A stretch of 64,000 nt of DNA from Marinospirillum alkaliphilum DSM 21637 (lineage in GTDB: Bacteria; Pseudomonadota; Gammaproteobacteria; Pseudomonadales; Halomonadaceae): positions 124,001-188,000 of the forward strand of contig NZ_FPJW01000005.1 of assembly GCF_900119735.1 (NCBI RefSeq), given 5' to 3'. The position numbers were made by a program, and so were the translations under genes. Below are positions 27,492 to 38,679 of the stretch, in pieces. The stretch's first letter is position 1; every line of letters begins with the position of its first letter. The notes below the pieces were generated by a model. That model was not told where the DNA came from. It did no database searches and worked only from the letters and a program-made list of their open reading frames with translations.

Positions 27492-27600
27492 GGCTGACTT
27501 TCAACCGAATATGCTTTTCGGCGCGTTCGACTTTCCTGCCTCAAGCGCCGCGCTGCGCAGTCCCTGCTGCGCTTGCCGCACTATTCGGTCTACATCAGCC
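27492..27600 (-). repeat. Structured intercistronic element, copy 1 (leuC-leuD gap)
   Basis: A 61-base core (27515-27575) matches, by hand alignment, 57 of 61 bases of a core in the liuC-liuD gap (36440-36500). Both copies are oriented the same way relative to transcription. In this copy the core is enclosed by perfect inverted arms ACCGAATA/TATTCGGT (27504-27511 with 27582-27589) and, further out, GGCTGA/TCAGCC (27492-27497 with 27595-27600). In the transcript sense, CAAGCGC can pair with GCGCTTG, or CGGCGC with GCGCCG. These two inner pairings share bases and exclude each other. The element ends about 28 bases before the leuD ATG. It could be a regulatory or processing RNA structure, or a dispersed palindromic repeat. 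Confidence 0.7.
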
Positions 27601-27679: not shown

Positions 27680-29095
27680 TCAGAATTCCCGCACATCCAC
27701 AAAATGACCGGCAATGGCAGCCGCAGCGGCCATGGCGGGGCTGACCAGGTGGGTACGTCCGCCATAACCCTGCCGCCCTTCAAAGTTGCGGTTGGAGGTG
27801 GACGCACAGTGTTCACCCTGCCCCAGCTTGTCAGCATTCATCGCCAGGCACATGGAGCAACCGGGTTCGCGCCATTCAAAACCGGCTTCAATGAAGATCT
27901 TGTCCAGTCCTTCTTCTTCTGCCTGCTGCTTCACCAGACCGGAACCCGGTACGACTAATGCCTGTTTCAGGGTGGCGGCCACTTTACGGCCTTTGGCCAC
28001 TTCAGCAGCGGCACGCAGGTCTTCAATGCGTGAGTTGGTGCAGGAGCCGATGAACACCCGATCCAGTTGAATGTCGGTAATCGCCTGATTGGGTTTTAAT
28101 CCCATGTATTTCAGTGCAGCTTCCCAGCTCTTGCGCAGGTTTTCATCCGCTGCTTTGGCAGGATCAGGCACCCGGCCATTCACCGCCACCACCATTTCCG
28201 GCGAAGTGCCCCAACTGACCTGAGGTTCAATACTGGCGGCATCCAGTTTCACCACCTTGTCGAATACTGCGTCGGCATCAGAGTGCAGGGTATTCCAGTA
28301 GGCCACCGCCTGATCCCACTGCTCACCTTTCGGCGCAAAAGGACGGCCTTTGACATAATCCAGGGTGATCTGGTCACAACCGACCAGCCCCACACGGGCA
28401 CCGGCTTCAATCGCCATGTTGCAGATGGTCATGCGGCCTTCCATCGACAGGCTGCTGATGGCAGAACCGGCAAATTCCATCGCATAACCCGTGCCACCGG
28501 CGGTGCCGATTTCACCAATCACGGCCAGGATGATGTCCTTGGCGGTGACACCGGGTTGCAGCTCACCATCCACCTGGATCAGCAGGTTTTTCATTTTGCG
28601 CTGAATCAGGCACTGGGTCGCCAGTACGTGTTCCACTTCAGAAGTGCCGACACCATGCGCCAGCGCTGCAAAAGCACCATGAGTGGCGGTGTGGGAGTCA
28701 CCGCACACCAGCGTCATGCCCGGCAGGGTTGCGCCCTGCTCCGGGCCGACCACATGCACGATGCCCTGACGCAGGTCGTTGATCTTGAATTCGGTGATGC
28801 CAAATTCGTCGCAGTTGTCATCCAGGGTCTGCACCTGAATGCGCGAGGTTTCGTCTTCGATACCACTGACACCCTGCGCACGTTCTTTCAGGGTGGTGGG
28901 TACGTTATGATCCGGGGTCGCCAGGTTGGCATTCAGCCGCCAGGGTTTGCGATTGGCCAGACGCAGGCCTTCAAAAGCCTGAGGGGAAGTCACTTCGTGC
29001 AGCAGGTGGCGATCAATGTAAATCAACGCGGTGCCATCATCACGCTGCTTGACCAGGTGAGCATCCCAGAGTTTGTCATACAGGGTTTGAGCCAT
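27680..29095 (-). CDS. leuC: 3-isopropylmalate dehydratase large subunit
   Basis: This 471-residue aconitase-family subunit holds the [4Fe-4S] cluster. Cluster cysteines are visible in [13 protein letters not shown] and [26 protein letters not shown] is another signature. The ATG is preceded by AGGAGAACAAAAC. As the first gene of the leu operon it faces a divergent LysR gene across a 141-base gap. Confidence 0.98.
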
Positions 29096-35597: not shown

Positions 35598-36395
35598 ATG
35601 ACTCAAACCACTGACCTGCAACACGCCCAGTTGGACATCGACCCGCGCGGCGTGGCCTACCTGACCCTGAACCGTCCGGAAGTCCACAATGCCTTTGACG
35701 ACCACCTGATTGCCGAACTGCTCGACAAACTCCGTCAGGTGCGTGAAGCCAGTGCCCGGGTGCTGGTGTTCCGTTCACTGGGCAAAAGCTTTTCTGCCGG
35801 TGCTGATCTGGGCTGGATGAAACGCATGGCCAGCTACAGCAAGGCCGAAAACAAAAAAGATGCCCAGGAACTGGCACGCCTGATGCACGAACTCGACACC
35901 CTGCCCTGCCCGACCATCTGCCGGGTGCAGGGAGCCGCCTACGGTGGTGCTGTTGGGCTGGCCGCCTGCTGTGACATCGTGGTTGCCACCGAAAAAGCCC
36001 GTTTCTGCCTGTCCGAAGTCAAAATCGGCCTCTCCCCTGCCGTGATCAGCCCTTACGTGGTGCGAGCCATCGGTGTGCGTGCCATGCGCCGTTATGCCCT
36101 GACGACGGAAGTCATCACCGTGCACCTTGCCCACCAACTGGGACTGGTGCACGAAGTGGTCAGCGAAGATGCTCTTGACGGACAGATCGAAATCCTGGTC
36201 GAAACCCTGCTCGCCAACAGCCCGCAGGCCGTGGCCCGCACCAAACAACTGGTGCACTACGTCGCCGACCGACCGGCAGACGCCACCACCCAGGACTACA
36301 CCACTGACCTGATCGCCGAAATCCGCGTGTCTGAAGAAGGCCAGGAAGGACTCAGCGCCTTCTTTGAAAAACGCGCACCCGGCTGGCAAGGGTAA
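35598..36395 (+). CDS. liuC: Methylglutaconyl-CoA hydratase
   Basis: This 265-residue crotonase-family enzyme hydrates 3-methylglutaconyl-CoA to HMG-CoA. The oxyanion-hole segments are KSFSAGADLGWM and GAAYGGAVGLAACCDIVVA; the catalytic Glu lies in FCLSEVKIGLSPAVISPYV. It is 10 bases from liuB. A 259-base gap with repeats separates it from liuD. Confidence 0.95.
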   Translation: MTQTTDLQHAQLDIDPRGVAYLTLNRPEVHNAFDDHLIAELLDKLRQVREASARVLVFRSLGKSFSAGADLGWMKRMASYSKAENKKDAQELARLMHELDTLPCPTICRVQGAAYGGAVGLAACCDIVVATEKARFCLSEVKIGLSPAVISPYVVRAIGVRAMRRYALTTEVITVHLAHQLGLVHEVVSEDALDGQIEILVETLLANSPQAVARTKQLVHYVADRPADATTQDYTTDLIAEIRVSEEGQEGLSAFFEKRAPGWQG

Positions 36396-36422: not shown

Positions 36423-36513
36423 GCAGGATACTTCTGTGACAAGCGAAGCAGGGATTGCGCAGCGCGGCGCTTGAGGCAGGAAAGCCGAATGCGCCGAAAA
36501 CAGAAGTGCCTGC
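36423..36513 (+). repeat. Structured intercistronic element, copy 2 (liuC-liuD gap)
   Basis: The core 36440-36500 matches 57 of 61 bases of the copy in the leuC-leuD gap, in the same sense relative to transcription. Here the enclosing arms are different: ACTTCTGT with ACAGAAGT (36430-36437 with 36500-36507), extended by GCAGG/CCTGC (36423-36427 with 36509-36513). The outer stem therefore exists in both copies with unrelated sequence. Inner alternatives CAAGCG/CGCTTG (36440-36445 with 36468-36473) and CGGCGC/GCGCCG (36465-36470 with 36491-36496) share bases 36468-36470. Function unknown. Confidence 0.7.
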
Positions 36514-36620
36514 AACAGTGACCAGTAACTTTGAACAGCCAACTGACTGCTGAAGCAAGGTGGCTCAGAAGAAACAAAAGTGCCTGCAACAGTGGCCAGT
36601 AACTTTGAACAGCCAACTGA
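36504..36620 (+). repeat. Direct repeat, two 43-base copies with 74-base period
   Basis: Positions 36504-36546 and 36578-36620 are identical except for one base (A at 36521, G at 36595). The first copy overlaps the right arm of the structured element. The second ends 34 bases before the liuD ATG. No third copy is seen, so this is a local duplication rather than an array. Confidence 0.8.
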
Positions 36621-36654: not shown

Positions 36655-38679
36655 ATGTTCCGTAAGATACTGATCGCCAACCGCGGTGAAATTGCCTGCC
36701 GCGTGATAAGAACCGCCCACCGCCTCGGCATCCGCTGCGTGGCCGTTTACTCCGATGCCGACCGCCATGCCCTGCACGTCAAAATGGCCGATGAAGCCGT
36801 TTACCTGGGCGCAGCCCCGGCCCGTGACAGCTACCTGGTGATTGAAAAAGTCATCGAAGCAGCAAAACAAACCGGTGCCGAAGCCATCCACCCCGGTTAT
36901 GGCTTCCTGTCTGAAAACAGTCGTTTTGTACAAGCCTGTGATGCCGCTGGCATTGTCTTCATCGGCCCACCGGTGGGTGCCATCGAAGCCATGGGTTCCA
37001 AGTCCGCCGCCAAATCCATCATGGAAAAAGCCGGTGTTCCCCTGGTGCCCGGATACCACGGCAAAGACCAGAACCCCGAACTGCTGAAAGCCGAAGCCGA
37101 AAAAATCGGCTACCCGGTGCTGCTGAAAGCCACAGCAGGCGGCGGCGGCAAGGGCATGCGCATTGTCGAAAAGGCTGCCGACTTCGACCAGGCACTGGCC
37201 TCTGCCAAACGCGAAGCCATCAACGGTTTCGGCGACGACACCATGCTGGTGGAAAAATACCTGGTCAAACCCCGCCACGTCGAGCTGCAGGTGTTCTGTG
37301 ACTCCAAAGGTCAGGGCGTTTACCTGTTCGAGCGCGACTGCTCGGTGCAGCGGCGTCACCAGAAGGTCATTGAAGAAGCCCCGGCCCCAGGCATGACGGA
37401 TTCTTTGCGCGCCCAGATGGGTGATGCTGCCCTGAAAGCCGCTCAGGCTATTGGTTATGTTGGTGCCGGTACCGTTGAGTTCCTGCTCGACGCGGATGAC
37501 AGCTTCTTCTTCATGGAAATGAACACCCGCCTGCAGGTGGAACACCCGGTCACTGAAATGATCACCGGTGAAGACCTGGTGGAATGGCAGCTCAAAGTGG
37601 CTGCCGGTCAACCGCTGCCGAAACAGCAGAGTGAACTGCAGATCCGTGGTCATGCCTTTGAAGCCCGCATTTATGCCGAAGACCCGGATCATGACTTCCT
37701 GCCCGCCACCGGCACCCTCAGCTACCTGCGCACACCGGAAGAAAACCGCCACGTGCGGGTGGATACCGGGGTACTGGAAGGTGATGAAGTCAGCATTTAT
37801 TACGACCCGATGATTGCCAAGCTGATTGTCTGGGACACCAGCCGCGAAGCGGCTCTCAGTCGCATGGCACAGGCACTGGCGCAATACCGCATTGCCGGTG
37901 TCACCACCAACACCCGCTTCCTCAAGCGACTGGCAGAAGCAGCCCCTTTCCAGCAGGCTGATCTGGACACCGGCTTCATCGAGCGCCATCAAGCCCTGCT
38001 GTTTGATGAAAAAGGCGGCAGTTACAGCCCCAACCTGCTGGCACTGGCCGCCCTGTATGCACTGCTGAAGCTGAACCATGAGCGCCAGCAGGAAGCCACT
38101 CGCTCCCGTGATCCATGGTCACCCTGGCATGGTTTTGGTGGCTGGCGATTGAACACCAACCCGACCCTGAACCTGCGCTTTGCGCTGCCAGAGCAGGAAA
38201 ATCCGGTTGAGGTTGCGGTGGAAGCCAGCAATGCCACCGGTAACAAGAACCTCTGGACGGTGCGGGTGGGTGAACACAAACTGCTGGTGGAAGGCCAGTT
38301 GAATGATGATCGGCTGGATGCAGTGGTGAATGGCCATCATCGCAGCATTCATGTGGCTGATCTGCATAACCAGCTGACGCTGTTCACGGCGGATGAGCAG
38401 TTCAGTTGCCAGTGGCTGCGCCCGGATCTGGACAGTCATGAATTTGAGGAAGCCACAGCTAGCCTGACCGCACCGATGAATGGCTCGGTGGTGACACTAC
38501 TGGCCGAGGCCGGCGCCCGTGTCAGCAAGGGTGATCCACTGATTGTGATCGAGGCCATGAAGATGGAGCACACCCTGAGTGCCCCCTCGGATGGCCTGGT
38601 GGCCGAGTTCTTTTATGCCGCCGGGGATCTGGTCAGCCAGGGGGCTGAGCTGCTGAAATTCGAAGCAGCTGAGGAATAA
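36655..38679 (+). CDS. liuD: Methylcrotonyl-CoA carboxylase biotin-containing subunit
   Basis: This 674-residue protein has a biotin carboxylase domain (about 1-450; [46 protein letters not shown]). A linking BT-type region follows, then a C-terminal biotinyl domain with [11 protein letters not shown], whose central Lys carries biotin. It carboxylates biotin with ATP and bicarbonate for LiuB. AAGAGGAACG precedes the ATG. Confidence 0.97.

Follow-up and report, generated by a model that had tools for sequence, protein, structure and literature searches.

A dispersed structured repeat, probably of REP/YPAL-like kind, in the leuC-leuD gap of Marinospirillum alkaliphilum

Introduction

Why should the gap between two leucine biosynthesis genes and a gap in a putative leucine-breakdown operon hold nearly the same palindrome? 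The window analyzed here, a stretch of 64,000 nt from Marinospirillum alkaliphilum DSM 21637 (NZ_FPJW01000005.1, positions 124,001 to 188,000), contains such a pair. An earlier reading of this DNA, hereafter the original prediction, proposed either an intercistronic RNA regulator common to opposing leucine pathways, or a mobile palindromic repeat that happened to lie in both operons.

An element shared by two gaps in the window

The imperfect palindrome at 27492-27600, here termed S1, fills part of the leuC-leuD gap and lies 27 nt from the leuD ATG (27464), close to the approximately 28 bases first given. Sequence comparison within the window recovered the predicted shared core, with 57 of 61 bases (93%) identical between 27515-27575 and the reverse strand of 36440-36500 (E 3.4e-20), and the window's repeat search returned the two copies as an inverted pair. 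Gene calls, obtained with a script of ours that scores codons and was trained on 12 ORFs of the window, together with matches to a covariance model (R2, below), confirmed that both copies lie the same way round relative to transcription. The arms were also as described, in that GGCTGA pairs with TCAGCC and ACCGAATA with TATTCGGT, and arm sequence differs between the copies. The features of the region are as follows.

27492..27600, minus strand: S1 element, leuC-leuD copy (L098); the GGA-loop strand is the transcribed strand; R2 match 27505-27588, 80.6 bits
27492..27497, unstranded: outer arm GGCTGA, 5' side on the plus strand; alone not above chance
27504..27511, unstranded: inner arm ACCGAATA, 5' side on the plus strand
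27519..27550, unstranded: P2 hairpin, stem CGGCGC/GCGCCG, loop containing TCC (GGA on the minus strand)
27555..27572, unstranded: P3 hairpin, GCGCAG/CTGCGC, loop TCCCTG
27582..27589, unstranded: inner arm TATTCGGT, 3' side
27595..27600, unstranded: outer arm TCAGCC, 3' side
36423..36513, plus strand: second window S1 copy (L096), in the gap upstream of a biotin-carboxylase-type gene; R2 86.8 bits
33842..33919, minus strand: S2 repeat, YPAL/RU-2 relative, 90.6 bits
33706..33790, plus strand: second, weaker S2 copy, 41.3 bits
26826..27464, minus strand: leuD (TIGR00171, NCBIfam, over cut-off)
27680..29095, minus strand: leuC (TIGR00170, NCBIfam, over cut-off)
35598..36395, plus strand: enoyl-CoA hydratase family gene, originally called liuC; best NCBIfam match gamma-carboxygeranoyl-CoA hydratase, below cut-off
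36655..38679, plus strand: biotin carboxylase and biotin carrier gene, originally called liuD; the liu name is without support from a model over cut-off

Fold, loops, and covariation

Read on the TCC-loop strand, S1 runs from a variable outer arm through an asymmetric internal loop (often TTTT/CC), an inner arm (often CAAGG or CAGG), a small internal loop, and a TCTGC/GCAGA-like stem to P2 and P3, followed by the arms in reverse, for a total length of approximately 100-140 bp. The P2 stems vary by copy yet pair (CGGCGC, CACTGG, CGAGTG, CGGCTG, CGGATG). TCC, which is GGA on the other strand, was present in the P2 loop region of all 20 distinct copies and in the P3 region of 18, and three copies (L101, L110, L111) had extra hairpins.

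Two covariance models were used, R1 from three S1 copies and R2 from a 22-row alignment (A4; 20 distinct rows); both were built from copies found through S1 similarity, so that pair counts lean to that fold. Across the 20 distinct copies, 91.9% of cells were paired and 24 of 26 pairs had changes on both sides, bearing out the claim that stems are kept while sequence changes. The covariation score was 0.571, versus 0.166 when shuffled (0/500 as high) and at most 0.096 when slid, a value somewhat inflated by fitting the alignment to the model. Of 508 pair cells, 461 were Watson-Crick, 6 G-T, 19 A-C, and 22 other, and stem changes mostly went from one Watson-Crick pair to another; P3 was the weakest helix, with 77.2% of cells paired. 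The S1 fold is real, and its covarying, kept stems take it beyond a plain REP. Wobble pairs are rare on both strands, and the lean to the GGA strand (A-C exceeding G-T) is a mild hint of strand-specific folding.

Two mutually exclusive helices had been proposed for the core. Both can form in the window copy, whereas across the family the alternative, or "switch", helix (at least 4 Watson-Crick pairs) occurred in just 4 of 20 distinct copies and the P2 helix in 18. Beyond the model edges, exchanging flanks between copies weakened their pairing, the mean duplex energy being -14.3 kcal/mol for native partners and -10.2 kcal/mol after swapping (0/2000 permutations as low; 26 copies). The pairing of outer arms expected in other copies was thus seen overall, with the exception of five of the 26 copies (L093, L098, L110, L140, L105), for which more than half of 50 swaps paired equally well. 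In the window copy (L098) this held for 30 of the 50, so the 6-bp GGCTGA/TCAGCC helix by itself is not above chance.

Distribution and genomic setting

The covariance-model search that had been suggested for this genome and its relatives returned, with R2, 26 S1 copies in five of eight same-genus genomes, which by our own count represent 19 distinct sites. The genome under study (G000) had 10 and G004 had 12, with 2 in G001 and one each in G005 and G006; none was found in G002 (87% complete), G003 (77% complete), or G007. R1 recovered 9 copies from the own genome and no copy from the 56 other-genus genomes among 61 family genomes. R2, with 15 candidates scored in each of 293 order genomes, returned the own genome as sole match, congeners not being among the matches listed; both of these wider scans used stricter filters, under which absence is not proof. 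At the leuC loci of 80 named genomes outside the genus, R2 with default filters found nothing at E 0.01, and two weak matches (E 0.018 and 0.3) were taken as chance. Neither the window nor the 13 loci scanned gave an Rfam match at gathering score, and we rejected S1 as a known Rfam family on that result; in permissive Rfam scans no match to S1 was credible, the second copy being overlapped by one match at chance level (14.9 bits, E 0.68). Plasmids had no S2 and one chance-level S1 match (E 0.7), and S1 sequence strings did not occur in the open-licence literature searched. S1 has so far been found in one genus.

The S1 copies lay between co-directional genes in 24 cases, between divergent genes in 2, and between convergent genes in none, although the latter may be chance, since of the 17 window gaps that reach 100 bp just one is convergent. 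The model edge fell 18-45 nt past the upstream stop in 22 of the 24 tandem copies. The two exceptions were L093, at 55 nt, and the window copy, for which the distance from the leuC stop was 92 nt. There was no orientation bias of S1 relative to transcription, the GGA strand being sense in 10 and antisense in 14 tandem copies.

Neighbor names, which cover 19 flanking proteins at 15 of the 26 copies, were mostly unrelated to one another. They included gatB beside an amidase (taken as gatA), paaE, modB, nifK, 3-hydroxyisobutyrate dehydrogenase, an acyl-CoA dehydrogenase family gene, an AMP-binding enzyme, cobalamin-independent methionine synthase, a YebC family gene, a Lon-like protease, an aldehyde dehydrogenase, and an ABC transporter ATPase. 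Three of the ten own-genome copies adjoined branched-chain amino acid genes, specifically leuCD, the liu genes as originally named, and, at L093, the 3-hydroxyisobutyrate dehydrogenase, a valine-breakdown enzyme. Additionally, S1 copies were located directly after nifK (L145) and beside modB (L142), in a genome that has a nitrogenase gene.

Shared, empty, and decayed sites

Six S1 sites were common to two or three genomes, with the same orientation at four and opposite orientations at two. One of the flipped sites was leuC-leuD itself, where the G004 copy was weak (26 bits). The G004 leucine operon contained two S1 copies, this one (L147) and another between leuD and leuB (L144). At the three-genome site the core was alike (0.91-0.95) and the arms differed. 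Moreover, core similarity did not follow site, in that the G006 carboxylase-gap copy was closer to a G000 copy from another site (0.93) than to the G000 copy at the same site (0.86).

In six of the eight genomes the leuC-leuD gap had no S1. The hydratase-carboxylase gap had S1 in G000 and G006, and in G002 held a decayed copy, with the G006 outer arms kept and the interior mostly deleted. In G001 and G004 this gap held GTAG-type REPs (by eye), the hairpins of which (L123, L124) resemble S1 P3 (by eye); in G003 and G005 it was without S1, and the G007 contig stops before it.

The eight empty-site sequences, six from leuC-leuD and two from the carboxylase gap, contained no long dyad, their longest inverted repeat being 5-6 bp. 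Against mononucleotide shuffles, the G003 carboxylase gap folded approximately 2 sd better, one other site approximately 1 sd better, and the others no better; the empty sites of present-day relatives may differ from the state at insertion. Target duplication was not obvious by eye at leuC-leuD, where the spacers are too diverged to resolve it. Insertion into ready-made hairpins or palindromes, in the manner of YPAL, was not supported at the two loci where relatives lack S1, and the empty sites there speak against it as the source of the arms.

Taken with the 26 copies, their mixed orientation, and their mostly unrelated neighbors, the empty leuC-leuD gaps of six genomes support the proposal of a mobile palindromic repeat present in both operons by chance, and tell against a regulator common to opposing leucine pathways. 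Many copies in random orientation beside unrelated genes had been named as the mark of an ordinary dispersed repeat, and the distribution recovered points to such a repeat. The original prediction as a whole is partly supported.

The S2 repeat and Y1-like genes

A second repeat, S2, adjoins six S1 copies. We fetched 14 own-genome S2 copies (L148-L161), each of which had paired flanks of its own (by eye and fold). For S2, 8 of 19 pairs were altered on both sides, and 10 of 13 tandem copies were GGA-sense. S2 scored 28.5 bits against Rfam Ysr224, below the gathering score of 70, and 25.7 bits against the printed RU-2/YPAL sequence, where 2000 shuffles reached at most 7.7. In the open-licence literature, some of the S2 sequence strings occur in the RU-2 paper, the only other paper matched being unrelated by title and abstract. 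Judged by sequence, S2 is a YPAL/RU-2 relative with a layout like that of S1. Its model matched at least 60 of 369 class genomes and at least 54 of 272 sampled genera, own included (12 candidates scored per genome), and YPAL/RU-2-like repeats, described from enterobacteria, would thus reach at least that many sampled genera of the class; arms at several of the S2-like loci shown from other genera were roughly 25-40 bp (by eye). In contrast, S1 had no sequence similarity to RU-2 or S2, its profile scoring S2 no better than shuffles and not listing RU-2.

In the own genome, an ORF at approximately 1381-2226 of L115 had a weak Y1 transposase match (21.7 bits, below the Pfam cut-off), and its scanned 275-aa part had no Pfam match at 1e-5. 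A Y1-like gene is common to the two multi-copy genomes, G000 and G004, with open frames of 284/285 aa and proteins 48% identical, a frame length found in none of the Y1 matches listed for the other six genomes; G006 has one S1 and no Y1 match. No S1 was located beside the four Y1-like genes examined (L115, L137, L138, L139), that is, the shared gene in G000 and G004, a further G004 gene, and one in G001.

Comparison with known systems

By De Gregorio's account of 2006, YPAL reportedly inserted close after stop codons. S1 resembles YPAL/RU-2, a relative of which is covered by Rfam Ysr224 (RF02770), in size class, hairpin modules with GGA/TCC loops, intergenic location close after stop codons, and palindromic surroundings, and differs in having no detectable similarity to the 168-bp repeat, no target duplication seen, and a range of one genus. 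In PMC2229807, YPAL targets are described as spanning or adjoining dyad symmetry; S1 copies have paired arms, whereas the eight empty sites show no long dyad. REPs, as described in PMC3733652, are dispersed, intercistronic, imperfect palindromes near the 3' end of the upstream gene, and S1 is like REP/BIME of the GTAG and CGTC super-families in all of these respects. However, S1 is longer, has a conserved center with free outer arms, is low in copy number, lacks a conserved terminal tag, and does not flank a RAYT among the four Y1-like genes above. Other literature consulted comprises PMC2759123, PMC2864571, PMC5193452, PMC2847712, and PMC2267715.

Paired hairpins with GGA loops are shared with TwoAYGGAY RNA (RF01731), from which S1 differs in sequence, in the absence of Rfam matches at gathering score and of a TwoAYGGAY match at E 1-2 where tried, and in that TwoAYGGAY hosts are mostly other. 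Like bacterial MITEs (ERIC/RU-1, NEMIS), S1 is small, non-coding, strongly hairpinned, and present in either orientation; unlike them, it has no fixed terminal (inverted) repeats, its outer arms varying by copy, and no target duplication was resolved. With cis-regulatory RNAs and riboswitches it shares a covarying secondary structure, but not a fixed orientation ahead of regulated genes. Compared with CsrA-binding RNAs, the GGA hairpin loops are present and the strand is mixed.

Origin of S1 and alternative explanations

We consider it probable that S1 belongs to the non-autonomous, dispersed, structured intergenic repeats of REP/YPAL-like kind, that it is kept at the DNA level without being leucine-specific, and that its effect on transcripts, if any, is that of a hairpin in general. 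Its sequence-conserved core has hairpins P2 and P3, with loops that mostly carry TCC (GGA on the opposite strand), and lies within arms that are free in sequence and in which pairing and an internal loop are kept. A mobilizing enzyme would have spread S1 by a putative transposition route, and surviving copies, which can face either way, lie mostly just past stop codons where the flanking genes are co-directional. Selection or mutation would act on the hairpin at the DNA level, as suggested by full base-pair swaps in stems and inverted S1 at two of six shared sites. When co-transcribed, S1 would place a stable hairpin after the upstream gene and, by analogy with REP and YPAL, may affect transcript decay or coupling generally. 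The matched arms may derive from insertion into palindromes, from selection, or from template switching. Counting against this explanation are the low copy number, the lack of S1 beside the examined Y1-like genes, the absence of sequence similarity to RU-2 or S2, the empty sites devoid of a long dyad, the five copies with outer flanks that pair no better than most swaps, the strand lean of the mispairs, and the window copy's departure from the position rule.

Covariation is the standard proof of functional RNA. S1 combines textbook covariation with either orientation and mostly unrelated neighbors, which makes it a natural test case for a DNA-level origin of such a signal. A possible but doubtful origin of this type is mutational, in that template switching at the core hairpin would copy one flank into the other, so that a single event would yield unique, perfect arms and substitutions in pairs. 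The direct passage between Watson-Crick pairs with few wobble steps, the inversion at shared sites, the lack of a long dyad at eight empty sites, and the presence of own arms at S2 copies too, long at S2-like loci of other genera, are all in keeping with this, and the mechanism is shown for RNA stems in PMC8794818. However, internal loops with mismatches reappear from copy to copy (by eye), although repeated correction should erase them, and no event was caught between close strains; the recurring loops speak against pure template switching. A broader version, which we think rather unlikely, would make S1 and the class-wide, YPAL-like S2 one kind of arm-renewing element, in which the hairpin core triggers template switching that copies flank onto flank and can itself flip in place, covariation being largely mutational and GGA loops kept by selection.

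That S1 is a REP family mobilized by a RAYT is decidedly unlikely. The Y1-like gene shared by both multi-copy genomes, the likeness of P3 to the GTAG-type REPs of G001 and G004, and the REP-like position after stop codons would fit such mobilization, but no conserved end tag was found near the model edges (GTAG in 9/26 and CGTC in 2/26, with ends and strands varying), the Y1-like genes at all four loci are without S1, the G006 copy exists in a genome without a Y1 match, and the G000 gene lies below the Pfam cut-off.

The CsrA consensus is GGA in a hairpin loop. The GGA-loop hairpins of transcribed copies might bind or titrate CsrA/RsmA, which would tie the operons to carbon storage control, and the loop motif shared by YPAL/RU-2-like repeats makes such binding worth considering; for S1 we judge it very unlikely. 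The TCC/GGA in nearly all P2 and P3 loop regions, the same motif in S2 and in the extra hairpins of L101, L110, and L111, the mostly GGA-sense S2 copies, the A-C excess favoring the GGA strand, and a csrA gene in the genome are consistent with this prediction. On the other hand, most tandem copies of S1 have their GGA strand antisense to the neighboring genes, this strand flips at two of six shared sites, and binding is predicted here from the loop motif. CsrA binding has been proposed for TwoAYGGAY in PMC4333381.

Finally, a leucine-responsive intercistronic switch common to synthesis and breakdown operons is extremely unlikely and already largely refuted, as the sense orientation of both window copies in operons originally called leucine-related, the two copies in the G004 leucine operon, and the three own-genome copies near branched-chain genes are set against copies mostly beside other genes, six congeners and 80 named leuC loci without S1, an inverted G004 leuC-leuD copy, and a switch helix in few copies. 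The leucine link looks like chance.

Sequences adjoining individual copies

To the left of the S2 copy at L093, upstream of 1361, a short GCTTTCGGCCCGCTTCGGG hairpin is repeated three times. In the window, a 49-nt direct repeat (96%; 36498-36546 and 36572-36620) starts at the edge of the second S1 copy and is apparently a local duplication.
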